This document shows positions 11,401-64,000 of a stretch of DNA of 64,000 nucleotides, piece after piece. The notes below the pieces were generated by a model that saw nothing but the letters and a program-made list of their open reading frames with translations, searched no databases and had not been told where the DNA came from. The position numbers were made by a program, and so were the translations under genes. Position 1 is the stretch's first letter, and each line of letters begins with the position of its first letter. This DNA comes from Paraescarpia echinospica (lineage: Eukaryota > Annelida > Polychaeta > Sabellida > Siboglinidae), in contig CM034541.1 in the NCBI GenBank assembly GCA_020002185.1, positions 48,993,480 through 49,057,479 on the forward strand, in the 5' to 3' direction.

Positions 11401-14400
11401 AAGTTGACACACATTGGGGTGGGTGCTGAAGCCGACACACATTGGGGTGGGTGCTGAAGCTGACACACATTGGGGTGGGTGCTGAAGCTGACACACATTG
11501 GGGTGGGTGCTGAAGCTGACACACATTGGGGTGGGTGCTGAAGCTGACACACTGAAGCTGACACACATTGGGGTGGGTGCTGAAGCTGACACACATTGGG
11601 GTGCTGGCTGCTGAAGCTTACACATTGGGGTGGCACACATTGGGGTGGGTGCTGAAGCTGACACACATTGGGGTGGGTGCTGAAGCTGACACACATTGGG
11701 GTGGGTGCTGAAGCTGACACACATTGGGGTGGGTGCTGAAGCTGACACACATTGGGGTGGGTGGAAGTGCTGAAGCTGACACACATTGGGGTGGGTGCTG
11801 AAGCTGACACACATTGGGGTGAGTGCTGAAGCTGACACACATTGGGGTGGGTGCTGAAGCTGACACACATTCGGGTGGGTGCTGAAGCTGACACACATTG
11901 GGGTGGGTGCTGAAGCTGACACACATTGGGGTGGGTGCTGAAGCTGACACACATTGGGGTGAGTGCTGAAGCTGACACACATTGGGGTGGGTGCTGAAGC
12001 TGACACACATTGGGGTGGGTGCTGAAGCTGACACACATTGGGGTGGGTGCTGAAGCTGACACACATTGGGGTGGGTGCTGAAGCTGACACACATTGGGGG
12101 TGGGTGCTGAAGCTGACACACATTGGGGTGGGTGCTGAAGCTGACACACATTGGGGTGGGTGCTGAAGCTGTCACACATTGGGGTGGGTGCTGACGCTTA
12201 CACACATTGGGGTGGATACTGAAGGTGACACACATTGGGGTGGGTGCTGAAGCTGACACACATTGGGGTGGGTGCTGAAGCTGACACACATTGGGGTGGA
12301 TACTGAAGGTGACACACATTGGGGTGGGTGCTGAAGCTGACACACATTGGGGTGGGTGCTGAAGCTGTCACACATTGGGGTGGGTGCTGACGCTGACACA
12401 CATTGGGGTGGATACTGAAGGTGACACACATTGGGGTGGGTGCTGAAGCTGTCACACATTGGGGTGGGTGCTGAAGCTGACACACATTGGGGTGGATACT
12501 GAAGGTGACACACATTGGGGTGGGTGCTGAAGCTGACACACATTGGGATGGGTGCTGATGCTGACACACATTCAATTCAACTGATGTATCCGCTATGTCG
12601 TCGTTTGCCTGTCATAATCAAAAGTTTGCACGTGACTGTCGTCAAGCTTTGCCTTTGCCAACAGTGTTGATAATGCCTGTATATGTGAATTAAATTACTA
12701 TTGCTGCAAGACATCTGATAAATCAAAACGTCCTGCATACAGTTGTCATATTAAAAACTTAGCCTTCTGTTTTTGTCATAAAGAAACACTTTTGGGATAA
12801 TTTCAAAAAATATACAAAAGAATGTCTGAGCCCACCACATGTTTGGCACCCATTTTTTTATGGCTTGATAATTTTTGTTAGGCAGCAGGTCATGTGAGGG
12901 ATAAGTCAACTCTTTTTTTTCAATTGAACAAATTAGATGTACATATGTACAAATGATAGATTTCAAATGGAAAGGGAGAAATTTGAAGTGCACTGCTCAT
13001 TAGGCACTTTACCCCAACATCAATATAACATGTGCATCATATTAATAGTGAACATAAATGTGTCGTATAATTTTAGTAACTAATGAATATACATGAAATG
13101 CAAAAGTGAAATCTACTCCACTTTCCTTAACAATAAACAATTTAGTTACACTAATTTGTACTCATCAAGAACATATTTTTTTAGATTTCTAATAGTAATC
13201 AGATTTTTTATATAATCATCTTAGCAATTCCACAATTTACTATCATACACAGATTTACACTTACACATCGAAAACACCTGTTCAAAGTAACATAATTTTC
13301 ATCAACAGCCACATAAGAATATTTCATGAAACCTAAACATGAAAACAATCATCTACAGCCACTTTTTGTTTTCACCAAATATGGTTATGTTTCCTGTTTT
13401 GCGAAAGACAACCACTTATCATGAGCCTAGGACTGGTACATCTGATGAACCAAAAACACACTGGTAGATTCTGACAGTATTTCTCATTTACTGGAAAGTA
13501 AACTATCGAACTTACCCAACATCAATCAAATCCCATAGCCACGTTTCAGGAAAGTAGTTCCGGATTTCGACAGCGGGTTCAAAGGGTACACCAGATTTTT
13601 TTACTACGACTGTGTTTTCCCCCTCCATTGGCACTGGCGCAGATGCTGAATCTATGTAAGAATATACATAAATATTTCAGAATCACAGATTTATCACCGA
13701 TAAATTAGCAAGCCTATTTAATGTGACTTGCTGCAGAAAATGCTATTAGGCATGATTGGATATGGGGACGGTTTTTTAACAAGTGGTTCTCTGTGTCTTG
13801 CAATGTTTAACCTTATAACATTATTAGGTACAGTTGATATTTGATGAAGTTGTTTAATAGTTGAATTATTGTTTAGATATTATTTCAGTTTACAGATAAT
13901 AGCAACATTGAAAAATAAAGTAGCAAATCATAACTATTGAGTTCCCATCAATAGTCACGACTCAAAAAAATCCACATTTATTATCTAACAAGAACAAGGT
14001 TTGAATAAATGTTGAAAATAAACTGTAACTATGTTTGAGAATTTCACATGCTGGTTATGACATTATGAAGCTCATTTCACTTCTACATGTTTAACGTTAG
14101 TTGTTTTCCTTAATCAGGTATTGTCTAAAGCCACAAGTTCACCAACACTTTGATAGAAGAGTTTGCTAAAAAAGAACAGAAAATAAGATGAAAGGACAGT
14201 GTCCACAGAGATGTACAAAGGGCAGCCGAACACGAGATACAGAAGAACAGTACAGTTTGAGAAGTATCTCGTTACCATAGTTAACATCACCCAAACTGTT
14301 TATAATGTCACGTTTGACCTTTTAGATTTAATTCGCTGGAAATATTAGTTGTTTTTAAGATATGAGGAATACACTGACATAGGCTGGATATGTGGGGAGA

Positions 14401-17400
14401 ATGGGAGGAGAATGATTTAACAACAAGATTTAACAAGATTGCCATCCAGAAAATTACTCTGGATGGCAGGTGGACAAGGAAGCCTTTTGGCTTATCGAGA
14501 GTCCAATACTTTTTATCTACATGTATCCCGCCTTTTTAAGGTGTGTGTCGATTTTATTTTTAAACATATTCACGCTACTAGCACCAACACAATCAGGAGA
14601 TAATCTGTTCCATTCATTTACAGTCCTTTGTGAGAATGAGAACTTTCTTATATCTAATCTACACTGCTCCTTTACTAATGTAGCTTCATGTCCTCTGGTC
14701 CTTCTATTTTTCTTAACTGAGAAAAAAATGTTTCTATCAATATTTTCATAACCATTCAATATTTTAAACACTTCTATGTGATCTCCTCTCAATCTCCTGG
14801 TCTCTAATGTTGTTAAACCACATTCTTTTAAGCGTATTTCGTAACTAAGATCCCTCAGATTTGGTATCATTTTAGTCGCTCTCCTCTGTACTCTTTCTAG
14901 CATATCTATGTCCTTCTTGCGATATGGCCTCCATGCATGTATACAATATTCTAAATGAGGCCTCACTATTGTTTTGTACAGCGGTACTATTAATTCTTTT
15001 TTTTTATACGCTATATTTCGCCTAATTAATCCAAGGATTTGATTTCCCTTTGACGCTGCAATTCCGCACTGCTCTGAAACCTTCATATCAGCACTAATGG
15101 TTAACCCCAAGTCCTTTTCTTTTACAGTAGTACTTAGAACAGTACCCCCCATTTTATATTTTACCTCTTCATTCCCATGACCTGTGTGGAGGCATTTACA
15201 TTTCCCAAAATTGAACAGCATTTGCCACTTTCCAGACCATTTGATCAACCTATCAAGATCATCTTGTAAATGCTGTCTGTCTCCATCACTTTTAATCCTT
15301 CTAAACACTTTTGTATCATCCGCAAATTTTAACACCTTGCTTGTTACATCATCGTCCAAATCGTTGATATATATTAAGAATAATATAGGTCCTAGTACTG
15401 ATCCCTGTGGTACCCCACTCAATACCGATTTCCAGTTTGAAGCCTCCCATCAACTACTACACGTTGTCTTTTGTCATTCAGCCATTTTTCTATCCAGTTT
15501 ATTATACCATTTCCTATGCCATGGGCCTTTAGCTTAAGGAGTAATCTTTGATGTGGTACTTTGTCGAAAGCTTTTTGAAAATCTAAATAGATGATATCTA
15601 CTGGTGATCCCTCATCTACCCACCTAGTGATGTCTTCCAAAAACATAACATATTTGTTAAGCATGACCTCGCTTTTAAAAACCCATGTTGAGATGGGTTT
15701 ACCAAGTTATGTTTAACAAGAAAATCCACCATGTGATCTTTAATTAGTCTTTCTAATAATTTGCAAATCACTGATGTTAAACTCACTGGTCTATAGTTCT
15801 CCGACTTGTTTCTCGAACCTTTTTTAAATAGCGGTATAATGTTTGCCTCTTTCCATTCTAAAGGAACCACTCCCTCTTCTAATGACAAATTGAAAACTGT
15901 TGCAAGCGGTACGCTAATTTGTTCTACAATTTCCAATAGTAGTTTGGGCGGAATCCCGTCCACTCCAGGTGATGTATTATCCTTCATAGCCCTTATTTTC
16001 TTAGCTACCATTTCCGAGGTTACAACTAACTGTCCTAAATAGTCTGAATCTGCCCCCTTGAACTTAGCCTCTGGTACTGGCGGTGAACTAATATCTTCCC
16101 TGGTAAACACTGAACTAAAATACTCATTCAGGTCTTCTGCCATTAAGAATCCCTCTGATATTGTATTTCCAGCACTATCTTCTAGAGGACCGACCTTATC
16201 CTGAACTTTCTGTTTGCTTCGAATATACGCATAAAAACTCTTACTGTCATGTTTTATATTACTAGCTAATTTTTTTTCATAGCTTCTCTTTGAATTTCTA
16301 ATTTCAGCTGTAGCTTGATTAAGTGCTTCTTTATAAATGTTGTAGTCTTCATCATTTCCAGTACATCTATATGACTTCCACATCATTTGTTTATACTTAA
16401 TTTTTCTAATGGCTTCTTTCGATAAGTGTTTCTTTTTAGACCGTTTCCCTTGTTTTTTGAAAGGTACAAATTTATCGACTATGCACTTAATTTCACTATT
16501 TAATGGCTGGCAAAGAAAGCAGAATGGAAGTAAAAGGAGGCCAGGAAGACTTAGACTGTGATGGGAGGACTGTGTAGAGAGACTTGGAAGGATTGGGAGA
16601 GGAGAACGAAAGCAAAAGAGAGCAGAGTGGAGAGAGCAGTGCAAGATAACAGAGAAAAAAGGAGAAAAAAGATAACTGAAATCATGGAAAGGAATCGAGG
16701 CCAGCCTCACCCCTGATGACAGGGAATCGAGGCCAACCTCACCCCTGATGACAGGGAATCGAGGCCAGCCTCACCCCTGATGATAGGGAATCGAGGCCAG
16801 CCTCACCCCTGATGACAGGGAATCGAGGCCAGCCTCACCCCTGATGACAGGGAATCGAGGCCAGCCTCACCCCTGATGACAGGGAATCGAGGCCAGCCTC
16901 ACCCCTGATGACAGGGAATCAAAAGGAGAACAACAACACTAAATTATAATGTCACATGTGACCTTTTTATACAGATGTAATTCACTGGAAATATTAGTTG
17001 TTTTTAACATATGAGGAATACACTAACGTAGGCTGGATATGAAGACAGTTGGTGGAGAGAGTAGTGCAAGATAACAACACTAAATTCAAATTTGATGCAG
17101 TAACAGACAGAGAGAAAGACACAGACAGACAGTAATATTTATTCTGTAGATGCTTAACACACCACATGTTCTACTTACAAGCAACCAAAGAGTGATGATC
17201 AGGTGCACCACCTGAAATTGAAACGTAGGAAACTATCATGTAAACATTAAGAACATAACACATGTTTTACTTATTGTGTGTAGCAGCTGCTTGTGCGAAT
17301 ACCCGACTCGGTCCTGAAATTGTACGTAAGCAATCGTCACGTGACCAGCTTTCAATGTCAACCATATTTTTCAAACCCTGGCTATCTTTTTTATCTTATG

Positions 17401-20400: not shown

Positions 20401-23400
20401 ATCGTCAACATCTGACAAAGATTCTTCACTAAAACTATCAAATAATCTGTCCAAAACATACAGTGGTAAATCGCTAGTTGAAGTAATGCCATCCGCCATT
20501 GTGGCCACTGCACATTTTGATAATTCATAATTAAAAACTGTGAAAATCTCTGTAAACTATTATTGAGCGATAATAAACAGTGACCACTGCTGAATAGCTA
20601 ATTTATTCGCCTTGACAACCGTACACAACAAGTGGCTCCACGTAATAGATAATTATGAGTAAAAATGATTTGAATAGCAGACATCGTTAATGCCAAATAC
20701 CCGGCCTATCGTACTGAAGCATCACAGACAGTGAGGCCGGAAATCCGGCCTGCCTTACTGAAATGGTTAATGCTGTCTGTTGACACAAGCCTCTGCCAGT
20801 GACCAATTACAGATTAGTCACAGTTACCATCAAACAATAGCAGGCAGAGAATCTTATCTCCATAGTGGGGTGGGGGGTGGGGTGGGTGTAATACACAATC
20901 AATTGGCACTCTGCCATCCTAGTCCAGACAAAATGTGAACATTTAGCTTTTTGAGAGGCAATGAGGTGCCCTTAGAATGATTCAATCAAATACAAATTTC
21001 TTGTGTACAGTGACAGTACCCTAAGAGACAAAATTAGAGAAAAAGTTATTGAAAAGTTTTTGAAATAACAGAAAAGACAACCTCTGATCCAAGAAAGACA
21101 CAGACTCTGCATGTGACAGATGTTGTAGGAAAAGGGATTAGTTATGTGACGGGGTGTAGCCAGCCAGTTATAAATTGAGCTGCAGGGCTGTTCTCCTGTA
21201 GTAGACAATTTAGTTAGCAAATTTTGCATTTTAGGGCACTACCACATGAAATGTCTATGCAAAATTAGAGAAAAAGTTACTGAAGTTTTTAAAAATATAT
21301 ACAAAATGTGAAAATTTACCAGTTTTTGGGTCCTTTTTTCCATTAGCTGCCCTTAGAATGATTCAATCAAATACAGATTTCTCGTGGCAGTACCCTAAGA
21401 TACATCTATGCAAAATTAGAGAAAACGTTACTGAACGGTTTCTGAGATACGGCAGCTAATGGCGGATGGCGGACGGCAGACGGCGGACGGCAGACGCAGG
21501 GTGATGGCAATAGTCCGTTGGACCTTCGGCCCAAAGGACTAAAAATTGGGGTACGTGAAAAAAAACAGTGCCCACAGCAAACATAAGTTTAATTTGTTGA
21601 GGGCAGTGAACCAGACATTTATAGTTGAAATTAATAATAATAATAAGATAACTTCTATAAGGTATATATAAGGTATATATATATATAAGGTAGGCATTTC
21701 TGTCAAAATCAAAACACTGAGGAGACAAGACCTAGACAGCTGTTTTTGGTTCGGGTGTAGAATAGAGCTGTGCAACCTAACACCTGGTTCACTGTAATGA
21801 ATAGGGCTGTGCAACCTAACACCCGGTTCACTGTGGTGAATAGGGCTGTGCAACCTAACACCCGGTTCACTGTGGTGAATAGGGCTGTGCAAAATAACAC
21901 CTGGTTCACTGTGATGAATAGGGCTGTGCAACCTAACACCCGGTTCACTGTGATGAATAGGGCTGTGCAACCTAACACCCGGTTCACTGTGGTGAATAGG
22001 GCTGTGCAACCTAACACACGGTTCACTGTGATGAATAGGGCTGTGCAAACTAACACCCGGTTCACTGTGGTGAATAGGGCTGTGCAACCTAACACCCGGT
22101 TCACTGTGGTGAATAGGTCTGTGCAACCTAACACCCGGTTCACTGTGATGAATAGGGCTGTGCAACCTAACACCCGGTTCACTGTGATGAATAGGGCTGT
22201 GCAACCTAACACCCGGTTCACTGTGGTGAATAGGGCTGTGCAACCTAACACCCGGTTCACTGTGGTGAATAGGGCTGTGCAACCTAACACCCGGTTCACT
22301 GTGGTGAATAGGGCTGTGCAACCTAACACCCGGTTCACTGTGGTGAATAGGGCTGTGCAACCTAACACCCGGTTCACTGTGGTGAATAGGGCTGTGCAAC
22401 CTAACACCCGGTTCACTGTGGTGAATAGGGCTGTGCAACCTAACACCCGGTTCACTGTGGTGAATAGGGCTGTGCAACCTAACACCCGGTTCACTGTGTT
22501 AGTTATAAATAAAGAAAGACGTACCAAAGTCCCAGTGTCGCTTCCTGTCACAGTAGTTGTCTGGGAGACGTGGCAAGGAGTCCGCCTTGAGGTCGTATTG
22601 GCTCAAGTGCTCAAAAACCTGAAGAGACATTAGGGAATCAGGCCTTGATGCAGGATAACATTTTGTAATCAATTTGTTTTCCTTCAGTTCCTGTCTTTGT
22701 TCCATTTATGCAGGAAAAAGTTTTGACCAGTCCAAAAATGTCTAGGTATATACACATGGAAATACAATCCAGTCCAAACACACACACACATATATATACA
22801 TTTGTATATGTGTAACACACAATTATTAAAACTTAATGGACATATGAATAACAGTGACAGTCAATAATGAGTAAGTTTTTTTCTTTGCACCTCCAATTTT
22901 CACCCATCCAAATTCAATCTTCCACCCATCCAAACATGAACTCAACCCATCCAAATGACGGATGGACAGGTCTCAAGATAAAGCTATGTTGTTCTCCTCT
23001 GCCCCAACAGATGTTCAGTGCATGGATGCAAAGGCTTCGGTGCACGTCTATTGGTTTCTCAAAACTGGCATCAGGCAACACTAATTGCACACAATGTATT
23101 CAGCACATCTACCAAACTGAGATGAAAGATGGGCAAATAAGAAGATCGCAACACCTTGCAACTAAAGCCACACATGCACTATGAATGACCGAACAATTGT
23201 GTCTGCAAGGTGGCAGCAGCAGTATTGCCATTTAGAATGCATTCATTCATGAAAAATTTGTTTTCATGCATGCTTCACTAATGAAAAATGGGTGTGTATA
23301 TTGTGCGTTAATCAGGAACTATATACTGTATATGAATTATACTTGCAACGTAAACATCAAGTATTGAACAAGATTGTAGTATCGATCAATACTGAAGAAA

Positions 23401-26400
23401 TCTGGTATCGAACCAGCTCTACCTCATTCACAACTGTGTTCAAGGAAATTTTTTTACAATATTAACATGTTCAACCATGCACGTCATCTTACCTTGGCCA
23501 TGGTCAGTTGCTTGGCCCCGCCCATAATGTGGACGCTCTTGTCCACTACACTGACACTGCACAGAGAGTCTGCGTCTGCTTTCACTTTCAAATTCACTTT
23601 CGAGCCCGGCATCTTCTCCTTCTTACCAAACTGTAGCTCCACCTGTCAATGATACAAACATGAAACCCATAACAATAAACAAACTATTTTCGCCTTATTT
23701 GAATTAGCAAAAATTACCTGTGTTACACACAGAGATATGGAATATGTTTTCACAAAACTTATGTGTATTATGACTCAGTTTTGACACAGTTTGACCAGTA
23801 CTTCATCTTGTAATACCAACTTTAGTTAGTGGCTACCTGCACACAGCTGACCTTATGACTCCCAGAAGTGTGAAAAACATCTTGATGCATTTGTCTTGAG
23901 TCAATCAGACAGAGTGAGGTGACAGAGGGAAAGTCTTGCTGTTCGTTGAAAACTACTCTGGCTCAAGCACAACGTACGATATGCCATATGGGTCTGTTAA
24001 TGGTTATAATGCAGTTTAATTAAATTTGCATCCTTCCCTCCTGTTATACAATGTTGCATTTATTTTTGGATCCATTGATTATCGTGGGTAACTAATGTTT
24101 ATTATTATTATTACGTAGTAGTGGTATGAGTATTTACCTAAAAAAACTTTGCTTAGCGTATGTGTCCATTTTGGATAATGGACACATACTGGAATAATCT
24201 GACAGCCGGATAATTGTTGTACTTTTTTACTTAAGTATTGTTTGATACAAGTACTTTTACTTAAGTACTTTCTTCAGGGGATACTTTTTTTACTTAAGTA
24301 GTTTTTTTGGAGTTACTTTTACTTTTACTTAGTTACTTGATTGGAGTACTTGTACCAGCATTGCATATACCTATACACACACAGGCATAGGCTTGCTTGA
24401 TTACAGTTAGATATTAGTTTGTTTTGAATACCCAAATAAAATATTATTTAATCTTTACTAGGTAACTGCAAATTTAATGTTTGAAATAATGCATGAGTAC
24501 AAAACTGAGTTCTCAAAAGGACTGAGCTGAATAGCTGAGCCTGCAAGGGAATAGGTGTAGACTTCTACACCATCAGGAACCTGAGCTAAGAAAAGCACTA
24601 AACAAGAATTATTAGGAAAATTCATGAACATGGATGCGCAACAGTAGAGTATCGCAGCAGATGAAGACAACTCATTAAGATGCCAGAATATAACAGGTGA
24701 TGAAGCCCCAACCTAGAACAGATCAAAGAAACATGAGTTTCTACCTTGTTTTGAAGACACTTCTTGATGTTGATATTGATGTTGTCAGCAACTGTCTCCC
24801 CATCCTCTCTCACATAGTAGACAAGGACTCGACTGACGGGTGACATATTTGGTGACACTGCGATCTCAAGGACAAAGCTTGATACGTACGCGGGCAGTTT
24901 GACAGGTTTTCGTTTCGGAATCTCTCGGCCAGTGTCTGGGTCCATTTCTGTTAACAAGGTGGGTGACAGGATGAAGAGGAATCAGAGGAGCTCTTATTAA
25001 GATAACGGGCCCTTAAAGAAAATTCATCATTAAACAGAATTCGTTGTTATGTTTAGAGTTTTATAGACATACAAAAATCTGCAGTCATATCTTTTTACCT
25101 CTGCTACAGGAACAGGAAATATTGATTTCTCCGAAATACGTAATACAACAAATTAATAACATGACAAATTATAACAATGCGTCACTGTCTATTTGTGGTG
25201 TCATTAGGATCAATATTAGTAGCCGGTATACCTAGGGCCAGGCTATAGACTACACAGTATAGTAGCTTGACTAGATCAAAGTCTCAATTTGGGACGTAAA
25301 AGAACCACTGAGAGTGAGGACGACAAGCACCCTGGCAGTGACCACCCTCAGTGCCAGCATAGAAAGGTCGGCTTGGCGATAATGTTCTGAAAAAGGCTGG
25401 CTAGTTGAATGAGACCTCATCAGATCATGACATATAACCACGATGTATACAGTCTACAGACTAGTCAGTTAATAGAACGTTGCCGAGTGCTGGAAACAAC
25501 TAGAACTAGAAAGTCAAAGACAAACACAAAGTCAAAGTCGTGCCAGGTTACCCTAGTCGTCGACATCGTTTTAGTCTTCTCAACTCTAGTATATATGCCT
25601 ATCCCTGTAAATGATAGACTAGACTTAATAAATAGTATTAAATACACTAACTTAGTCTTAGTACAGTCAGTTTGCCTGACACTACAACGTAATCAGTACC
25701 TGCAATTATCCAGGCCACTATGTCTGATGTCATGTGAAATAGGAAAATAAATTTCGCGTATACAGCAGTATGTAAAGCCGACCCCCTTCCTTAAACTTGA
25801 CAATACGGGCCATGTTTGCGTGCATGCTGTTATAAACGTTTGCAGCATACGTTTCTTCTTGGCTGGTAGTGGTGCCATTTCGATCCGAGCCTTTATTTCG
25901 TGCCGCATGAGTCATGACTTCTTCTTGTTTGAGCGCCATGAACGCGGATATGCGAATTTATCGTAACCATGTTTCCTATTGGTCAGATTACGACCAGAAG
26001 CAGCGAATGAAAAACGATGTCACAACAAGCAGCGTATACATGCTGCCACCTGTTGAATACAGTGAAGCTAAATTTGAGGAGCACGGAAATGATTGATGAC
26101 GAAAGAATCCGTAATATTTTCATCCCTCGCCGTAATACCGTAATTTGAGGAGTATTTCCGGAATGATTCCGGATAATCCGGAATGGTAGGCAGGTCTGCA
26201 ATGACATTATTTGCATGACACATTCGTGAAAGCGTCCCTTTGGCACATCCTTGTGTTGAATGTATTCGGTGCACGAAATCATAGTTAAAGAGCAAAATCG
26301 CCTTATGAACCCCAGGACATAAGAAGGTTAATAGGTCACAGGTCACAGGTTAGCAACATCAGATGATGTCACACTGCATTTGAATGACAGGTGAAATACA

Positions 26401-29400
26401 TAGGACATGGTAAGTCATTCATAGGGAGCAAAATAACATGTCACAGCAAAAACTTACAAACCCTTTAGAGAATTTGTTAACAGATTTTGTGATGTACACT
26501 TTTCAAAACCGACACTGCATATTACCTGAACTGTTGCACAGACAACAGGTTTGAAACTGATTCATGATGGGCAAACATGACCTACCTGGTACTTATAAGT
26601 GTCATAAGAGAACATTATTGGAGACATTTCTGTTCTTAAGCGAACATAGTCAGATCTCATTTAACCTTTGTATTATTCATACATGTATACAGTTTTAACA
26701 AAGTTTTATAAAAATTATATTGTTCATGCATGGCTCCAAAATTAAATTTGAATAGCAAGAATTAAACTCAAATTGGAGCTGTATTTGAAACTTGCAACGT
26801 TATGACCTGTCTGCAGCGGACCATGATCACGAACTGATGTCATGTGATTTTGGCGGAATGACACTTACATCGGTGAAACTAAGACCACTCTGCCAGAGGT
26901 TTAAAGAACACACAAACCTGGGTAAGCCTACAGGAGTAGGAGATCATTATCTGACCACAGGACACTCAGTGTCCGTGGATGACACCAAGGTCTTGGCCTG
27001 AGAACAGAACTAGCACAAGAGAAAAGTAAAGGAGGTCATCTACATCAGAGAGCCCTACAATGAACAGAGACCAGGGATACCACCTGCCCGCCATCTACAA
27101 CCAGATCATTCCGCCAAAATCTACGTCACGTCACATGACATCAGTGCGTGATCAAGATCCGCTGTAGACAGATCGAAACGTTGCAAGTTTCAAATACAGC
27201 TCCAGTGTAAGTTTAATGCTTACTGTTCAAACTAATTTTAGTTTTATTTATCTTTGCATCATCTTTTAGTGTATAATCAACTTATTTAATGTAATTTAAC
27301 TTTATATTTTTTTGTCTAGTATGTTTAGCTGTTCAGCGTTTTGCTAGTCATTTGCTTTATAATTTCATTCACCTGTAATTTTACTATACAAAGGTTTGTT
27401 TATACATACTAGAATTTTTTTGTTAACTTTACTTTTTATTATTAATTTCTCTTCAATGAGATTTTATGTTTCTTAAATATTTGCCGATTTTGTAAACCCC
27501 GGTGTATAAAAGTTTATTATTATTATTATCATAAGATCACTTTAAAAGGGAATTTATGGGCACTCACCTATGTTGACGACTGCTTTCTCTGGACCAGTTA
27601 CGGAGCTATCAACGATAACCTCCTCCACCACCTCCACCCTTCCTTCCTCCTCCTCCTCCTCCTCCTCCTCCTCCTCCTCCTCTGGCTGTGTTATCACCAA
27701 CACTTCCGCCCTATTAGTTATGGGACCCGCTGCCACAATGTTTCCCCGTGACATCACCTGAAGGCATACAAAAGATAAGTCCTCATATATCATTTAGTCG
27801 ACGTAAACAACACATACAGTATAGTCAAACCTCGCGTTGTGGTCACCTCAGGAATACAGCCACCTCACTATTAAGGTCAACCTGGGGACTGAATAAAAGT
27901 GACCGGAATATCCAGGTGGTTGTATAAGCGGGATTAATTTTCTGCACTTTACTGATAGGAAAATAATTTTGGACCCCCATAAGGTGGCTGTATCACCAAG
28001 GTGGCCATAAAGTAGGGCATTGAAAGCACTTAACCCTAGGGCATTAAAAGCCCTGTAGGGCATTGAAAGCATTTAACACTTCAAAACCTGGCAAACAGTG
28101 GGACCATAAAGTGAGGTATGACTGTACTATATCTGGTCTCTAGGGCAGTGAAAGCACTTAACACTTCAACCCAAGGCAAACATTGGGACCATAAAGTGAG
28201 GTGTGACTGTACTGTATCTGGTCTCTAGGGCATTGAAAGCGTTTAACACTTCAACCCCTGGCAAACATTGGGACCATAAAGTAAGGTGTGACTGTACTGT
28301 ATCTGATCTCTAGGGCAGTGAAAGTGCTTAACACTTCAACCCCTGGGAAACATTGGGACCATAAAGTGATGTTTGTCTGTACTGTGTCTAATCTGTAGGG
28401 CATTGAAAGCACTTAACACTTCAACCCCAGGCAAACATTGGGACCATAAAGTGAGGTGTGAATGTACTGTATCTGGTCTCTAGGGCATTGAAAGCGCTTA
28501 ACACTTCAACCCCTGGCAAACATTGTGACCATAAAGTGAGGTTTGACTGTACTATATATGTTCTCTAGGGCAGTGAAAGCACTTAACACTTCAACCCCAG
28601 GCAAACATTGTGACCATAAAGTGAGGTTTGACTGTACTGTATCTGGTCTCCAGGGCACTGAAAGCGCTTAACACTTCAACCCTTGGCAATCATTGGGACC
28701 ATAAAGTGATGTTTGTCTGTACTGTGTCTAATCTGTAGGGCATTGAAAGCACTTAACACTTCAACCCCAGGCAAACATTGGGACCATAAAGTGAGGTGTG
28801 ACTGTACTGTATCTGGTCTCTAGGGCATTGAAAGCACTTAACACTTCCAACCCCTGGCAAACATTGGGACCATAAAGTGAGGTGTGAATGTACTGTATCT
28901 GGTCTCTAGGGCATTGAAAGCGCTTAACACTTCAACCCCTGGCAAACATTGGGACTATAAAGTGAGGTTTGACTGTACTATATCTGGTCTCTACGGCAGT
29001 GAAAGCACTTAACACTTCAACCCCTGGCAAACATTGGGACTATAAAGTGATGTTTGTCTGTACTGTGTCTGATCTGTAGGGCATTGAAAGCATTTAACAC
29101 TTCAACCCCTGGCAAACATTTGGACCATAAAGTGAGGTGTGACTGTACTGTATCTGGTCTCTAGGGCATTGAAAGTGCTTAAAGCTTCAACCCCTGGCAA
29201 ACATTGGGACCATAAAGTGAGGTTTGACTGTACTATATCTGTTCTCTAGGGCATTGAAAGCGCTTAACACATCAACCCCTGGCAAACATTGGGACCATAA
29301 AGTGAGGTTTGACTTTACTATATCTGTTCTCTAGGGCAGTGAAAGCGCTTAACACTTCAACCCCTGGCAAACATTGGGACCATAAAGTGAGGTGTGACTG

Positions 29401-32400
29401 TACTGTATCTGGTCTCTAGGGCATTGAAAGCGCTTAACACTTCCAACCCCTGGCAAACATTGGGACCATAAAGTGAGGTGTGAATGTACTGTATCTGGTC
29501 TGTAGGGCACTGAAAGCGCATAACACTTCAACCCTTGGCAAACATTAGGACCATAAAGTGATGTTTGTCAGTACTGTATCTGATCTGTAGGGCATTGAAA
29601 GCACTTAACACTTCAACCCCTGGCAAACATTGGGACCATAAAGTGTGGTTTGACTGTACTGTATCTGGTCTCTAGGGCATTGAAAGCGCTTAACACTTCA
29701 ACCGCTGGCAAACATTGGAACCATAAAGTAAGGTATGACTGTACTGTATCTGGTCTCTAGGGCATTGAAAGCGCTTAACACTTCAACCGCTGGCAAACAT
29801 TGGAACCATAAAGTAAGGTATGACTGTATCTGGTCTCTAGGGCATGGAAAGCACTTAACACTTCAACACCTGGCAAACATTGGAACCATAAAGTAAGGTA
29901 TGACTGTATCTGGTCTCTAGGACATGGAAAGCACTTAACACTTCAACACCTGGCAAACATTGGAACCATAAAGTAAGGTATGACTGTATCTGGTCTCTAG
30001 GGCATGGAAAGCACTTAACACTTCAACACCTGGCAAACATTGGAACCATAAAGTAAGGTATGACTGTATCTGGTCTCTAGGGCATGGAAAGCGCTTAACA
30101 CTTCAACACCTGGCAAACATTGGAACCATAAAGTAAGGTATGACTGTATCTGGTCTCTAGGGCATGGAAAGCGCTTAACACTTCAACACCTGGCAAACAT
30201 TGGAACCATAAAGTAAGGTATGACTGTATCTGGTCTCTAGGTCATGGAAAGCACTTAACACTTCAACACCTGGCAAACATTGGAACCATAAAGTAAGGTA
30301 TGACTGTATCTGGTCTCTAGGGCATGGAAAGCACTTAACACTTCAACACCTGGCAAACATTGGAACCATAAAGTAAGGTATGACTGTATCTGGTCTCTAG
30401 GGCATGGAAAGCACTTAACACTTCAACACCTGGCAAACATTGGAACAAGGTCAACTAATACCTACTGCACTTACCTGGTAGTAAAATGCAAATTCATCGT
30501 TTCCTTCTGTCGTGTAAGAAACGTTTACTTTCAGTTTGCCCAAGCATTCCTGCTCGCCGTCAATTGGAGTCATCTGCAAGAGGGATCCACTAGGCGAATA
30601 CCACTGCTTGACAGCAAAGTAGCTGCTAGGTTCGAATGGCGAGTAGTCTGACTGCGACCTCGTGAATTTGTAACGTGGTACGGTTGCCTGAAAACAGATT
30701 GATGTGTACATTGATGCCTTCAGAATGCTACTTTTAGAAACAGTTACGAAGTTTGACAGTGGCTTCACCAAGTGTAGACTGCTGATAGAGTTTGGGTCAG
30801 GGAATGTCCTCTTGAACAGGATCTACTCAAGATATTACATAACTTTAGTATCCTGTGTCTAGGTTCATCCGTCTGCTAATTGCTGCTCAATAATGGAGTG
30901 ACATATGAATCAGGTATATCTATATATATATATATATATAATAATATTTTACTTTGTTAAGCGCCACATCCAATGTTGCTCACAGCGCTTTACAACAATA
31001 TACAAATGTATGTTAAAAATAGTGCATTTCAATAAAAAACAATAGTTGTTACGTCAGAGCCTGGAAACACCACCTCTAAACGACGATGAGTTGTTATATC
31101 ATAGATAAAATAAACTAATAATAATAGTAATTAAGACAATAAATCTAGTAGAAGTAGAAAAGGAATGTGATATAAAATATCATAAAATAAAATAATTAAG
31201 ATCATAATTTTTATTATTATTTTAATAAATAAACAAACTATAATTAACATACCAGATGTTCGTATTCAAAAACTTATTTCATGGTAAAAAAGCAACTGAA
31301 AAGAAATAGGTAATATTTCTAACAACTCTGAGGGGAATGCTGTCTGCAGCAGTCACACAGCGACAGGGCTGTAGACCTAAAATGGTTAAGGTGTGAACAA
31401 TCGTGATGCATAATATATAGAAATAGCCATGAACAAATTAGTGATACACACGGTGATATCAATGTCTTGGGTGGTGGGCTGAAATGAAGGAATCTTGAAG
31501 TAGAACTGTCCCATCGCATCTGTTGTGTAGTTGTACTTCACATCTGACATGGAGCCCTTTGCGTTTTCACGCACTTTGATTGTCACCAGTTCCCCTGGCG
31601 CCGGCGTTCCATCAGGTTTTGTAGCAATACACTGCAGAAACAAACACGCGCCATCACAGTATCGTATTGCACAAAACAAATACACCCTAGAAACAAACAT
31701 GCACTTTCAGTGTAGCATCGAAAAAAACAAGTGCTACATAGTAACAGACACGTGCCGTCAGTGTCATATTGCACAAAACAAGTACACCATAGAAACCAAC
31801 ACGCACATTCATGATGTAGTATCACACAAAATAAGCATACCTTAGAAACATACATGCAGCTTTACATTTTAGACATAACAAGTGCGCAAACTCCACAAAA
31901 AACATTGCATCTTTTATTGGCTCAATACATGGTGTAGACTTGATGTTTACGATCATCAATTGCTACCAGCATCAATTTGCATTAACATGTTTCACTCACT
32001 AGGTGGCGTCACTGTAGCGATATATTTTCCCTGTGATCTGTGGCGACAACCCAACCACCCCCATATGTAATGCGTTTTGGACAAACTTATACGACTGACC
32101 CTTAGTGTTACTGTTTTACACAAAACAAATACATCAGAGAAACAAACATACACCACATGACAACAGTAAGGGCCTACTCTGTTACATAAAACAAATACAT
32201 CATCAGGCCTATTATATGTCAATACAGAACATTATCACGTGCCATGGTGCTTCTCGTCCTCGGTGGTTCTTTTACATCCCAACTTGAGACGGGACAGACA
32301 TTAATGAACCACAGGCGATATTAGTTCCCAAAGTTGAGAGTCAGCCTTCCACACCAAATGTGCTATGACTACAGGGTTTTGAACTCAGAACTCTTGCACC

Positions 32401-56451: not shown

Positions 56452-57732
56452 CTAATGTTAATGTTTACAGTAACATAGCTACAGTTAATAGATTGAGTGG
56501 CCAAACATCTAAATGTTCATTGTCATTGAACGTAGCTCTGTGACTGTGGTAATATTTCTAAAATGTTCAATCGTGTTGTTATCGTACGAACGTTCGTTGA
56601 ATTTCAGTGGATTCGATGTGTTTTTAGATTGGTAGGTGTTTCACATTCTTGCGAGACGCACACCGGGATGACGATGTCGAGGCTCTAGCTGACTTCGTTG
56701 ATCTCATGACGACTGTCTTACAACTAAATTTAACTAACTAAATTTCCTTTTGCCAGTTTTGGACATATTCAACTCTCGGCGATCTTTTACTTTCTGCCCT
56801 AAGGCTAAACACCACCAACAGCCGCCAAACTTCTCCTCTCATATCTTACATACATATACACACACTAAATTATAAAAACAATTCTCTTACCTTCCTATAA
56901 CGCTCAAAATTCACAGAACAAACTCAAGTAAAACTCGACTTCTACGGCGGCGGCTATCCGTTGCTCCGCGATTACCGTAAAATCGATATTGTATCGAGAT
57001 TCACAGAAATTCAGTACAGTGGCGCTATCTTTACGGTTTGCACAGAGCCGCGACAGTGATTCAGTGCAAAGCTGATAACGTTACATATACATTTTATTTA
57101 TAATTACTACTACACACATGTCCATGCATGTATGGATGACTGATTAATATTAGTTATGCTACTTTTATTAAATGTGTTCATACCTATTATCTAGTATAGC
57201 AGTTTAATGAGTATTTATTTATGTAATGGTGTGGTGGGAGCATAAATCGTGCATCCTAATATTTTAGGTCGTTTTAACAATAAATCTGATCACAAAAACC
57301 TAAGAGGGTGAGGAATGGCGAGATTTCAGGGACACAGTTTTTGACCTGGTACAAATTTCCCTGTCGTGAGTATAATTATTAATTTGTATACCCACAATGC
57401 ATAAAAATAAAAGTTTGTATTATATATATATATACATACATATATTAAAAGGGTCTACATGTCATACATTAAAATTAGAAGTAAAGATATTTCTTAACAA
57501 TATAATATAATATGTTTAAATATTTTAAGGATATTTTGCCTTACAGCTTGTTAATGGGATGATGTCTTTGTGAACATTACATAACGATTGAGAAGGTTTG
57601 CTCCTCTATTAAGCAAATATGAACCTAGGACATTGTTATGGTATTAGTTATTATTATACAGACCAATAGGCAACATATTAATATTCAGTAGTAGCACTCA
57701 GCATGACTGTGTCTGTATGGGGCCTTGTTTAA

Positions 57733-57808
57733 AGGAAAACAAAAGGCAACGTTGTGGTGTTAAGCACCTAAAAGAGTTAGCACAAACTAACCATTTGTAT
57801 CTACAATC
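57733..57808. repeat. left terminal inverted repeat of the Kolobok-like element
   Basis: AGGAAAACAAAAGGCAACGT, then GGTGTTAAGCACCTAAAAGA and on, about 75 bp, with around ten differences from the right end by eye. Confidence 0.88.
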
Positions 57809-58052
57809 ACGATTTTCAGTTCAGTGGTTTACTCGGAATGTACTCTTAAAGTGGAAGATTCTAACGAAATCTGCGATAACATGTATACTGCCATCTTACT
57901 GATGACGCGTTCGTTCGGCCGAAAGCAACCAATAAACGAGCAGCATTATTTTTGCCGTGTACGACACACTGTCTTGTGTAGTTCGCGTAGTTGGTTCATG
58001 TTCATGGGATGCGGTTCGTTATATTAGTATAAGTTGAGCTTACAGTGAAAAC

Positions 58053-58303
58053 GTGACTTGCAATGTGCCATACTGCTCTGCATACGGTTGTAACAATAGT
58101 ACAGCGAAGGATACTGAGCCAGAAGTGAAATAGTGGATTCACAACAGTGGACGGGCTGGTTGGATTGGAAGCCTTCGAAATACAACGAACTATGTTCAGA
58201 TCATTTTGAAGGAAATCTATATCGTCAGTTAATGACACAAGATCCGACAAAACGTCGCCGACGTCGATGTTTGAAGCCAGGTGCAGTGCCTACAATATTT
58301 TAG
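58053..58303 (+). pseudogene. THAP zinc-finger domain exon, frameshifted
   Basis: Plus strand: VTCNVPYCSAYGCNNSTAKD supplies the first two cysteines of the C2CH THAP finger. After a stop and a one-base shift, WKPSKYNELCSDHFEGNLY gives the C-x2-H pair with the invariant tryptophan region. LKPGAVPTIF is the AVPTIF box that closes the domain. The expected basic F-FP segment in the middle is lost and no in-frame ATG is seen. It is the DNA-binding N-terminus of the element's transposase. Confidence 0.85.
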
Positions 58304-59343
58304 TCACGGACCTCAGCCGTCAAAAGCGACGCATATTTTCGATCAAACGCGCCGCCGCTGAGAAATCGATCGCAAGAAGGTTAGTACCGAGTTACTTGGT
58401 ATCCAATTATAATCTGTTGAGATGCAAGATATGCTGGAGGCAAGCCAGAACAGTACCAGAATGTACTATATTGCACCACAAAGAGTTTAGACTTTAGAAG
58501 ATAGCCGAATAGCAAAAGTTAACGGCAATCAAGTCGCGTGAGCGATATTACAATAACTGATTAACATGGACTGGAATGATTGTCGTTTATAATAACATTG
58601 CAAAACTTACTGCATTTTGTGTTAAATGAACAAAAATACGTTCTGCATTCAATAATATTGCATTAGACATTGTCATATATCGAAATGTTTGGCCTATTAT
58701 TTATGTCATGTTATATAATTGGACTTCGTATATTATTATGTGTGACTACTGTTTATGTGACGAAGAATATCACTATATACTCTATTGTAAAACGTTTAAA
58801 ATGGCTTCATTTGTATTTAGTAAAATTACATAATGTTACTCAATTTTAGTTAAGGGGATACAACCCAGGTGAGTGGTTTTTATTAGAAAAACATACTAAA
58901 ATGTTTTTTTATGCCAGATTATGATAGCTTATTATGTTTACTGTGAATATATATCATTTTACAACAATTACATACCTTTAAACCACTCTTATCCATGGAA
59001 TAAGGGAGTCAGTATCAAGTAATTGTTATCCATTATGCCACATTTGATGGCCATTTTCTAAAAAAACATTTAAATTAAGCATTTGGAAGGATATCTCTAG
59101 GAGTAATTATGTGATCCAAATATAGTTATCGATGAGCTCACCAGATACACCATGTTTGTATTATAAAAATACTGGTATCACTCAATAATCATATATTGTC
59201 GAAATATCTTTAATAATATACCATGTGCACACATCTTCACTAACTTGTTTTTTTGTACACTAACAACAAAATCAGGTAACAGCTGTTGTGAAAATATCTT
59301 GAATTTGGATCAAAAATATAAATAATTGTAATTTGCATTTCAG

Positions 59344-59500
59344 CTCGATCACCACCCATCATGGGGAAAGACATCAACCGCAAGTTTACTGCGAAGGTCC
59401 GAGGCAAGGGATGCGAGGACCTCCTTCATTGGATACAGAATGTATCAAACCATCTGTGGTGGTGTTGTGCAACATGCAACAGTGATGCACAGTTGCTGAA
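59344..59500 (+). pseudogene. THAP-linked transposase-like gene, internal exon
   Basis: Bounded by TTTCAG and AA|GTAAGT; phase 1 to 2. Reads GKDINRKFTAKVRGKGCEDL, then LHWIQNVSNHLWWCCATCNS. The KGCEDL--WI--ISNHLWWC--C-GD pattern is typical of the proteins that carry N-terminal THAP domains in invertebrate and fish genomes. The preceding D-WH catalytic segment is not visible. Confidence 0.75.
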
Positions 59501-60458
59501 GTAAGTACCAAACTTGATATGTATTCATTTTATACCTGAGGCATGTCCAAAGCAACAAGTAACCTTTAGATTTGCAATCAGTAGATGATGAGTAGGGACT
59601 TGAATCCCAAATACACTAAATCAGCTCCTATGCATAACTAACATAATAAGTTTTCGAAATTAGTGCATTTCATAGGTATCCAACTCGTTTTTTTCAGGAT
59701 GGCTACTCAAAAGTACCAGCCAGCATGACTACTACCTTATCAGTAAATGTGTTTATTCAGACTTCCAAAACTGATAATGTAAATGCTGTTTACATGTTAT
59801 GTGGTAATATGTGGACCACCGACTTATGTATGGGACCAAAAATGTTACATAGTCAAAGTTCCTGATGACCAACTTTTCAGTAGTCTAGTCACTCAGATGT
59901 GAGGGGCGAATACACAGATGGATAGTGCTCATTCTGTATCACCCTACCTATTCCTTGTAACCAGTTGCTGTGTACATTTATGAGTACAGTTACTTGAATG
60001 TAATAAATTACATCTCCGTGTATAATTACATTCCAGAATGCAACTGTCTGTAATGAAATAAATAAGAGCACTTGTGTCATTATCACCAATTTTATTAAAG
60101 AAATATAAAATCAAAACATGATATCAAGATACAGTGACTGTATATACAGTAGATACAGAAATTAAGAAGAAAAAAACAAGTTATAATAAATTATGTGAAG
60201 GAATGTGATGATGGAATACCTTATTTGTAAGGATCAGTATCGGTTTACTAATGTACCAGTATGATTACCATGATTGGCCATTGTATTGTTACTAAAAACA
60301 AACAACACTTTACACAGGAAAAGCATTTTAAAGTTCACTGAATGCTACAGTCATAAGGTAAATAACAGCAGCTTACTAACAACATATAGACTGGTGTGTT
60401 ACACCAGTTGTTTGCAGACATTTTATTAGAATACTGCATGTACTATTCTTCACTGTAG

Positions 60459-60761
60459 GAATGAAAGCTAGATTGATGCTGTCTGCTCTGGCGTGGAACT
60501 ACCGACCACGTCCCAGCCCAGACAAACCTGTTGAGACTGGTGTAATGTGGTCCAAAAGTCGCAAGCAATGGGTGCTGCATAACAGACCACAGCAGGTGAA
60601 CCCACATACCCACCTACAAATGCTCACGGATCGAGTGACAGATGTGTTTATAAAGAAATATCACACTGCATCCGATCACAGTCACTGGGGCAGATGACCC
60701 AAAACCAGAGAAGGAGGATCTGCTGGCAGCAAGAGTCAGTAAATTTGTAAAGAAACAGTAA
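60459..60761 (+). pseudogene. THAP-linked transposase-like gene, last exon, frameshifted
   Basis: Acceptor CTTCACTGTAG. Reads GMKARLMLSALAWNYRPRPS, then SKSRKQWVLHNRPQQVNP, the C-terminal region of the same family. One frame stops at 60695-60697. A one-base shift restores GADDPKPEKEDLLAARVSKF, ending at TAA 60759-60761, so a single indel separates it from an intact tail. Confidence 0.72.
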
Positions 60762-60813
60762 ATACTGCCACCACCCACCTACACCTTCATAGGTCACATG
60801 TACATCGTCTAGT

Positions 60814-60972
60814 TTAGTTTTCAAGTCCAGCGTGGTATCCCTCGTGTTGTCTCCCATCGGGGACAGGGAACCTTGATCTTATTCCATGGCTGGCGCATGC
60901 TGGTAGAACTCTCTGTACCTTCGTCCCAGCTTGCCATGGATCCACCAGGTAAACTGTCTGTATGCAGCCCAC
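60814..60972 (-). pseudogene. P2X7-ballast-like gene, last exon, frameshifted
   Basis: Minus strand after acceptor CGGGTCTCAG: one frame gives AAYRQFTWWIHGKLGR and the next gives QRVLPACASHGIRSRFPVPD, then GRQHEGYHAGLEN and a stop. Both halves are conserved in the cytoplasmic domain of P2X7 and its stand-alone relatives (YR-F--W--G-LG; R--LP-C----IR--FP---G-Y-G). Their split over two frames shows at least one indel. Confidence 0.72.
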
Positions 60973-61014
60973 CTGAGACCCGAAATAAATTAGGCTCAAA
61001 TAAACATCTGACAT

Positions 61015-62046
61015 TGTAAATAAATTACATATAAAAATCGGTTCTATAACGACACCATTCCTTTATATAAATACCATTAAACATGTGTTCATCTGGAATA
61101 AGGAAATTATTGATAATTTTGCACTACAGAACAAATTATGACGGTGCAACAAACATTGTATCTATACGTTATGATAACTTAAGTGGAACAATTATAATTT
61201 GTTCTGTAGTGAGAGAGTATCACTTTATTCATACAGTAGAATACAATAAAGTGTGAAACGATAACCCAAGTACATGTGTGAATACAGTAAATAGCTATGT
61301 ATAGTAGTTTATTGTAGCAGGCTAAGGTAAATAATGACTAACGGTTAAAGTAAGTCATATTGAAAATGAACACATTTATGTATAGGATTACTTGCTGTTG
61401 AGGGAAATTTTATTTTGTAATTATTGTCATATTAGGGTGATGGTCATCATATTTAAATTAGTCTTGGGTCAAACCAGTGTGGTTCGTCTTTACATTTAGA
61501 AAGGGTGAATGGCGTTAGCAGGGCTAGTTTAGACAAGCATACGATTGAATTAGTTGTTTTGTTGGTGGTTTTATTCCAAGAGATTTTAAGAAGGTTGTCA
61601 GTCTTAGATTTGTTGGGTTCAGATACATAGCCTCTGCAACCTATTTCAATGCGTTATTCTGATTTTATTTCGTTATTGTTTACATCATGGATTAGTGCGA
61701 CATACTTGTTAGTTTTCAATACATGATCTTTCTTGACGTTAGGTTCAAATGGTAGTCAGTTCAATGATGTGAATTTGCTTAGCATGTGGATGGTAGATGA
61801 CGTATGGTAAGTCCACTAAGTAATTTCCCTGGAAGATTGTTAATAATTTGGGCATCAGGCATGAGATTGCTGATAAATTATCTATATATATTTGTATTGC
61901 TATTGCTACTATGATGTTGTATTGTGTTCATTATTAAGACATTTCAATAAATATTTAACGACACATTTCACTGGTCTTGTAACAATGCATGCACATATAT
62001 ATGTACTTGTTTGTTGGACGGTCTAATTCCCATTCTGCAGCATCAC
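61015..62046. other. non-coding interior of the Kolobok-like element
   Basis: Between the middle and last exons of the P2X7-like gene. AT-rich, no further exon that I can support, although one small exon may be missing here because the phases of the neighbouring exons and the AYRQF frame do not agree. Confidence 0.5.
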
Positions 62047-62102
62047 CTGCTCCAAACAAAGAATTCTAAATCCCCTGCTGTTTGTAATGCACAGCAGTCC
62101 AC
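62047..62102 (-). pseudogene. P2X7-ballast-like gene, middle exon
   Basis: 56 nt between TTGTTACAG and GAGCAG|GTGATG; phase 1 to 0: GLLCITNSRGFRILCLEQ. The CIT----F---CL pattern matches the segment that follows the DWC-CG-C zinc motif in this family, and its phase agrees with the first exon. Confidence 0.65.
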
Positions 62103-62861
62103 CTGTAACAAAGAATTAAGCATTTAAATAATAGTTTTACACGAATGTTAAGCAAACATGGATTATTATTCTGAACAGATTTCACAAAGAATGCATCACG
62201 ATCCTCTAACTGTATTCATCCCAGTATTATATCTGGGTCCATAGAAATATCATGCAGATTAAGGAAGGCCGTTTTGAAATGTGTCAATATTTGCACAAAA
62301 CGGTGGTCATTTTCTTTGTCACCAAAACAAATGGGGGCTCTGGCTGAAAAATGTTCGAGGTATATTTTATTCATAAGAGCCAATGTAAACTTTGGGCAGA
62401 AAAATTGCAGTATGCATAAAGTTAAAAAAATAACCTATCTACCTGCCATGTGTTTAAAAAGTAGCACTGCCACATATTGTTCATACATGCATAGCCATTA
62501 TTGCGAATGTGAAGAGTGTCGACGGGGATAGAACAAAGGGGGAGTTAATTCCTGCTTATTTTCTATCACAGCTCTGCCCTGTACAATTTTGGTTCACGTG
62601 AATCATGGAACCATTCAACTACATTTCTTTTAAAAAGTGAGGGTACAGCCATGGGTAGTATTCGAAAATGGACATGTCAAAGTTCAAACACTGAGTCCAG
62701 TGGCACTGAGAGTGAGATCTAAGTTCAATAATTCAACCAATCCCAAATGTAAAACAAGTGACGTGTCCCGGCCCGAGCGATCATCTCTCGCTGTTCATAC
62801 GCAGCCCGGAACTTAGGCTCATCGGTTATTTAAACAATAAACTAAACAGATTAATAATTAC

Positions 62862-63168
62862 CTTCACCAACAGCGTTGCTGTCGAGTAGCAACCGCCTCC
62901 TGGCAGCAAACATATTCAGTTCTTGTTCCCGAACAAGGAGATCGCTGCGGCATTTTCCACACCGACACCAGTCAATTTCATCTCGGCATGGTATGCGCCT
63001 TGACATTTCCACTGCCCGTGGGCCTTCCTGTTCGTGCCCACCGGCACGCGCCTCTGCCCTATCTTCCAACACAGGCCCTTGTTTTTGTGGTTCAAACCGG
63101 TATCCAGTTGCTTTGAAATCGATTTGGTTTTCGTTGTCTTCCGAAGAATTGGAAAGCCATCTTATTTA
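62862..63168 (-). pseudogene. P2X7-ballast-like gene, N-terminal exon
   Basis: Minus strand: SNSSEDNENQIDF, then ATGYRFEPQ (the Y-FEP leader of this family), a charged linker, and RRIPCRDEIDWCRCGKCRS, the zinc-binding core. Ends at GAAG|GTAATT. No ATG is in frame; ATG 63162 lies one base out of frame just upstream, so a single indel probably removed the start. The domain is known as the C-terminal ballast region of vertebrate P2X7 and as stand-alone proteins in many invertebrates. Confidence 0.8.
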
Positions 63169-63379
63169 CACAGTCACAGCGCATGCGCACATAGTTTAAT
63201 TGGTAAACTTACCATACTGCTACCTAACGGAGTTGGGAACAAATAGTACGCAGAAAATTGTCGAAGCGAGTTACGACAGTGTGACGTCACTTTCTTCTAA
63301 CAATGGCGTAGTCCATAGAAATTCGGTAGTTGTGTATTCAAAAATGTTTTCCTGGTAAACCCCTGACGTTAACAATTTG

Positions 63380-63454
63380 ATTGTAGTTGGAAATTGTTAG
63401 TTTGTATTAACTCTTTTAGATGCTTAACACCAAAACGTTGCCTTTTGTTTTCCT
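63380..63454. repeat. right terminal inverted repeat of the Kolobok-like element
   Basis: Ends ...ACGTTGCCTTTTGTTTTCCT followed by TTAA; reverse complement of the left end. Confidence 0.88.
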
Positions 63455-63458
63455 TTAA

Positions 63459-64000
63459 ATATACAGTGCGCTTCAGATAACTCGAACTGTCATTTTAGTT
63501 GACTTTAGCTTATGTCGATCTTTCTCTTCAGTCCCAGTCATATAAGGCGATAAAACATTGATCTTAATTAGTGGAGTTTCTTTTATCTAGAAGTATTGCC
63601 ACGGGTCTCTGGAAATTCAACGTATTCAGAATGCACTGTAATATGTACATATTTAACACATATTGGCAAAAACGAATACCTTTATTCTCAATGCTGCACA
63701 TACACATTTTCACATGTAATTGATTTACAAAGTAACACGTTTAACAAGGTGAACTGTTGGCATTTAGCAATGTGTCTGAACTCCATAATGCCAACACGAA
63801 TCTTACAAATCTTACTTAGTTCATTACCAGATTTATGCAGTATATTGGCATTTTTAATATCTTGGAGATTACAATGGGTACAATAGATAATATAGTACCC
63901 GGAATATTTCAGAGACTTGATTGCAATGTTAAACCTGACCTCTCAGTCAATTCAACCACTCATAACTTCACATGTAATTGACTTACAAAGTAACACTTTT
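63459..64000. other. right-edge flank, no recognised gene
   Basis: AT-rich; a phrase with CACATGTAATTGA and TTACAAAGTAACAC occurs twice (63712 and 63969), suggesting the start of a further repeat. Otherwise nothing supported. Confidence 0.45.

Follow-up and report, generated by a model that had tools for sequence, protein, structure and literature searches.

A decayed two-gene element of Kolobok type carrying a P2X7-ballast gene in the annelid Paraescarpia echinospica

The window analyzed here is a 64,000-nucleotide stretch of the genome of the siboglinid annelid Paraescarpia echinospica (assembly GCA_020002185.1, contig CM034541.1, positions 48,993,480 to 49,057,479 of the forward strand; coordinates below are those of the window unless another locus is named). 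Within it, a 5722 bp element to which no strand is assigned (57733–63454) is very probably a decayed, non-autonomous Kolobok copy of the published two-gene (Kol0) kind, in which a transposase gene is accompanied by KolX, a gene for the cytoplasmic-ballast domain of P2X7. The element is a further member of that published lineage, and the two-gene idea itself is not new: the initial annotation of this DNA, made from the letters alone, had put forward both the idea and the connection to P2X7 as inferences of its own, but both are already found in Kojima and Bao (2022; PMC9587614). What is added here is the convergent layout of the two genes, a count of the copies and a second family that keeps the core motifs of the transposase.

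Structure of the element and its gene relics

On its left the element is preceded by a TTAA target site (57729–57732) and begins AGGAAAAC..., with the tip AGG; on its right it reads ...GTTTTCCT up to position 63454, with the tip CCT, and is followed by a second TTAA (63455–63458). Terminal inverted repeats lie at 57733–57838 on the plus strand and 63349–63454 on the minus strand. The initial annotation had recognized the TTAA flanks and the identical termini starting with AGG, and both hold, with the outermost 21 bp identical between the two ends; the inverted repeat that it had put at about 75 bp is likewise present, but in fact spans about 110 bp (about 112 columns in a gapped alignment; 84% identity over an ungapped pair of 111 nucleotides). 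A TTAA target site duplication, seen in the window and in seven further copies with two visible ends, and termini of the form 5'-RR...YY-3' (here AGG...CCT) are both features of Kolobok elements.

The two gene relics converge, that of the THAP/transposase gene on the plus strand and that of the P2X7-ballast gene on the minus strand, just as had been proposed. On the transposase side, a THAP exon relic with a stop and frame breaks (58055–58306) matches PF05485 at 58118–58303 (E 2.6e-8, or 1.9e-12 with the frames joined), so that a third Kolobok feature, the THAP domain in the transposase, is present, though broken. The stop is in frame inside the exon, and the exon is broken in all 16 rows compared, the window included. 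Two copies (L019 and L026) have an additional short segment in this exon (LSFLFP) that is absent from the other rows, and may perhaps represent an older branch of the family. Downstream on the same strand lie TP2 (59340–59504), homologous to the stretch that follows the DxxH motif in two related transposases at the loci L050 and L051 of the same genome, and TP3 (60440–60760), presumably a C-terminal piece of the transposase. Pfam returned no match to TP2 and none above the cut-off to TP3; a protein search with TP2 was also empty, and TP3 showed no significant match to either L050 or L051.

On the ballast side, three minus-strand relics can be read: a first exon (62855–63165; YRFEP...WCRCGKC, with the CC motif in another frame), a probable middle exon (62035–62102; CITNSRGF) and a last exon (60812–60972; AAYRQFTWW...PACAS). 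Taken singly, ballast exons fall under the Pfam cut-off (E 0.015 and 0.13), but a read-through that links the exons and bridges the frame changes reaches 32.1 bits, above the P2RX7_C cut-off of 23.5 (E 1.4e-7), and matches PDB entries of P2X7 with a best E of 2.8e-4. A protein search yielded two hits among 28 candidates, both of them Capitella teleta proteins with a ballast domain, and a profile built from 21 related KolX-like proteins matches P2X7 chains at 2.4e-28; in IMG/VR, the Capitella ballast protein had no relative that could be confirmed. The seven conserved cysteines characteristic of Kol0 are all readable in the window but are split over frames, with WCRCGKC separated from the CC motif and YRQFTWW from ACAS. 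Between the first ballast cysteines and the CC motif, 2 of 7 rows keep a distance divisible by three, and within the last exon 6 of 18 rows do, so some frame breaks are common to the copies and others are not. Accordingly, the two genes of the initial description are relics rather than whole genes, with introns suggested by splice-like sites; the distance of 52 bp given between the two stops varies with the frame chosen.

Recurrence of the pair and its assignment to Kolobok

The host assembly (1,083,790,144 bases in 3111 contigs) holds 40 scored matches to the left terminal repeat among 1224 candidates. We compared 20 stretches, each extending about 9 kb inward of such a match, with the left terminal repeat as the sole basis of selection. 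These count as 14 independent insertions, since L011-L013 have a common flank and L020-L024 share another. The latter group (G000:C8, 58.2-58.43 Mb), five copies of which three are spaced 7.4 and 8.7 kb apart, is one insertion multiplied by later duplication. The regions of both the transposase gene and the ballast gene are present in 11 of the 14 insertions, at 87–97% identity to the window per aligned piece. This is the outcome of the very check that the initial annotation had proposed, a search of the host genome with the terminal repeat. TP2 is found in 10 of these 11, the exception being L027, where it is gone and the THAP exon, TP3 and two ballast exons are kept. Both ends are visible in seven copies besides the window element, each flanked by TTAA, and the element recurs at different flanks; the ends located among the 20 stretches likewise show TTAA and the RR...YY form. 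The extra length looked at in five copies (L009, L010, L017, L019 and L025), by its translation as judged by eye, is long interspersed nuclear element (LINE) sequence and not a transposase core. The copies are dead, with broken frames and no recognizable DDE core.

The same pairing is seen genome-wide when the two sides are searched for separately. TP2 has at least 150 scored matches (538 candidates), as does the first ballast exon (461 candidates). Among the matches listed, 86 of 150 for TP2 have a ballast partner no more than 15 kb away, and every one of these 86 pairs is convergent, with the ballast match downstream on the opposite strand at a median gap of 3435 bp; when the ballast positions were shifted as a control, a mean of 0.59 pairs and a maximum of 4 were obtained. 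As these figures apply to the matches listed, an unpaired match does not mean that its partner is absent.

Further support comes from related transposases of the same genome, retrieved with a hand-composed Kolobok transposase core query. This query gave 159 matches among 1245 candidates (150 listed), of which the best, L050, is 49% identical to it. Core motifs of the transposase are seen in both L050 and L051, those of the latter being DARCDSPGH, TDRH, DLWH and HTGELE, in a reading frame that stops and a frame change break up. TP2 matches L050 in a pairwise blastp comparison at 9e-9 and in tblastn at 3.4e-4 from the family consensus (0.011 from the window sequence, with a larger set searched), and matches L051 at 2e-8. 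At L051 the transposase converges closely, at a distance of 1672 bp, on a two-exon ballast gene (62.4 bits when joined) in which the second cysteine is replaced by tyrosine (WCLYGHC). L051 and the window family alike display the Kol0 feature of a second protein, KolX, with the ballast domain, and on the strength of its sequence we regard L051 as a second, divergent family with the same convergent transposase-ballast pair. Together, the 11 of 14 insertions, the genome-wide convergent pairing far in excess of the shifted control and the L051 pair imply that both genes form one Kolobok-type transposon, as the initial annotation had suspected.

In this reading, a THAP-DDE transposase gene converges on the accessory gene KolX, with its P2X7 cytoplasmic-ballast product, and the family spread through this genome as a single unit between the AGG...CCT inverted repeats, inserting at TTAA. 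Movement would have been by cut-and-paste, a relative with a fuller gene set probably providing the transposase in trans; the THAP finger would have bound the terminal repeats, and KolX is a putative zinc-binding helper of transposition.

Several observations weigh against this reading. First, in three of the 14 insertions (L016, L018 and L028) the roughly 9-kb stretch is without a visible ballast region: L016 and L018 stop within the left part, the latter still with its THAP exon, and in L028 some 6 kb lie between two pieces of the left part. A TP2 match and a ballast exon, oriented as expected, do lie 12–18 kb from the left end of L028, which may therefore carry inserts. Second, the DDE catalytic core and the C/DxxH motif, both Kolobok features, are not found in the window family: with the L050 and L051 transposases as queries (E 0.01), no DDE core was detected in the window, the 20 loci or the family consensus, all of which match around TP2 only, and the DxxH position reads MMWH in the consensus, with the D absent (DLWH in L051, DVYH in L050). 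The match in L010 extends 29 residues further upstream over the stretch of the second D, at 28% identity, without TDRH and with a stop, and is possibly what remains of the core. The part where the H2CH zinc finger of Kolobok transposases would lie is likewise unrecognizable in these copies. Third, the Kolobok label of L050 and L051 came through the hand-composed probe, and between the 150 listed matches to that probe and the 150 listed matches to P2RX7_C only two pairs lie within 30 kb (L051 being one), against a chance mean of 1.3 and maximum of 5. Fourth, a THAP exon and the element ends of L051 lie beyond the stretch covered there, and TP3 is assigned to the transposase by general resemblance. 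Finally, the Kolobok assignment rests on features and homology rather than on a tree that includes reference Kol0 sequences.

Among the alternatives, a piggyBac-type element fares best and is still very unlikely. It would share the TTAA target, and proteins that resemble the end of KolX are encoded in a few families of piggyBac, which could account for a ballast-like second protein. However, RR...YY termini separate Kolobok from piggyBac, and the window tips are of the RR...YY kind; those piggyBac proteins are also without most of the seven cysteines still readable, over split frames, in the window (PMC9587614). The THAP domain and the matches of TP2 to the L050 and L051 transposases likewise argue against it. 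Chance nesting, the outcome that the initial annotation had set against its own proposal, would mean that, at one locus only, terminal repeats happen to enclose the remains of a transposase together with a ballast gene of the host that has nothing to do with it. Ballast repeats without a recognized transposase do occur in the same genome, and the three insertions without a ballast region in the stretch covered would agree with it; but it is refuted, and we give it hardly any credence, as the whole element recurs, TTAA-flanked, at different flanks, both regions are held by most of the independent insertions, and a single geometry is kept throughout the listed pairs. A KolobokP element, which also has a transposase and an opposite-strand second gene, the latter for a His-Me finger nuclease (PMC9587614), is refuted for the window copy and has next to no probability: the longest direct repeat in 57000–64000 is 34 nucleotides as against about 450 or 660 bp, and the minus-strand gene matches P2RX7_C.

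Other ballast-bearing repeats and neighboring features

The ballast domain is abundant beyond the family of the window, with at least 150 matches to P2RX7_C in the host genome, all of those listed being over the cut-off (1397 candidates). The best 12 (L029-L040) all belong to one repeat family, which we term B; 12 loci other than L041 and L036 (L042 included) align to L041 at 84–92% over up to 3.9 kb. Family B (L029-L042; for example L041:3273-7126) has an open ballast gene, the frame in L036 running to 211 amino acids and scoring 103.9 bits against P2RX7_C. The ballast gene at L049 is of a different class. In two stretches of 10 kb and 12 shorter loci of family B, and in 4.5 kb at L049, no match to the L050 or L051 transposases was found at E 0.01; the ends of these repeats were not found either. 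The initial notion that a two-gene transposon explains the abundance of ballast proteins hence holds in part: Kolobok pairs are many, but two ballast repeat groups are without a transposase in the stretches covered. That in this genome the ballast domain became independent of the Kolobok pair and now spreads by means of separate repeats is a tentative idea that we consider rather improbable; if true, KolX would be a module of several mobile elements, beyond being a Kolobok accessory. A further P2RX7_C match (G000:C13:48300708-48300986; 73.9 bits) lies in an open frame of 444 amino acids, longer than the other listed frames, and by its sequence is a possible fusion gene.

Elsewhere in the window, an exon at 24625–24981 on the minus strand has an alpha-2-macroglobulin bait-region domain (PF07703, E 1.3e-10) and is probably part of a host gene. 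A LINE-like reverse transcriptase occupies two frames at 14520–16770, also on the minus strand (RVT_1, E 2.3e-12, and 2.5e-6 below the cut-off), and large minisatellite arrays are present at 1–1484 (43 bp unit), 11016–12572 (28 bp), 21760–22498 (39 bp) and 28056–30443 (85 bp). Open frames at 6488–7369 on the plus strand, without a Pfam match, resemble a tyrosine-recombinase element.

Comparison with published systems

In a literature search for a link between the P2X7 ballast and transposons, or between KolX and Kolobok, PMC9587614 was, apart from one review, the one paper on this subject by its title among those listed. The Kol0 families described there (Kolobok-1_XT type) encode a transposase and KolX, and resemble the window element in the TTAA target, the RR...YY ends and the ballast fold of KolX. 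They differ in that the family of the window consists of dead copies without a recognizable core, and in the available excerpt of that paper we find no mention of a convergent arrangement for KolX. The XKol element of Xenopus shares with the window element the TTAA target, the AG tips and a THAP domain in the transposase; in contrast, its transposase, of about 783 amino acids, has DDE and H2CH, and the terms KolX and P2X are absent from the accessible part of its description (PMC6004289).

The stand-alone ballast (ZCD) proteins of invertebrates, which are short and contain nothing but this domain, share it with the window gene (Rump et al., 2020; PMC7016195). They were counted at fewer than 10 genes per species, with transposons unmentioned in the available excerpt, a number that fits badly with the abundance of P2RX7_C matches over the cut-off in this genome. 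The ancestral synteny of stand-alone ballast genes reported in the same excerpt argues for host genes, that is, in the opposite direction to a transposon origin.

Finally, the C-terminal tail of P2X7 is a domain homologous to the ballast relic of the window, beside which no P2X7 channel part was found within the element. The published account holds that KolX is clearly similar to the C-terminal ballast of P2X7 and that P2X7 originated when a P2X4-like gene fused with KolX; it also considers Nanor a probable case of KolX domestication (PMC9587614). To the claim that the P2X7 tail domain is a transposon-borne protein, the element described here and its relatives bring genome-wide, independent support.

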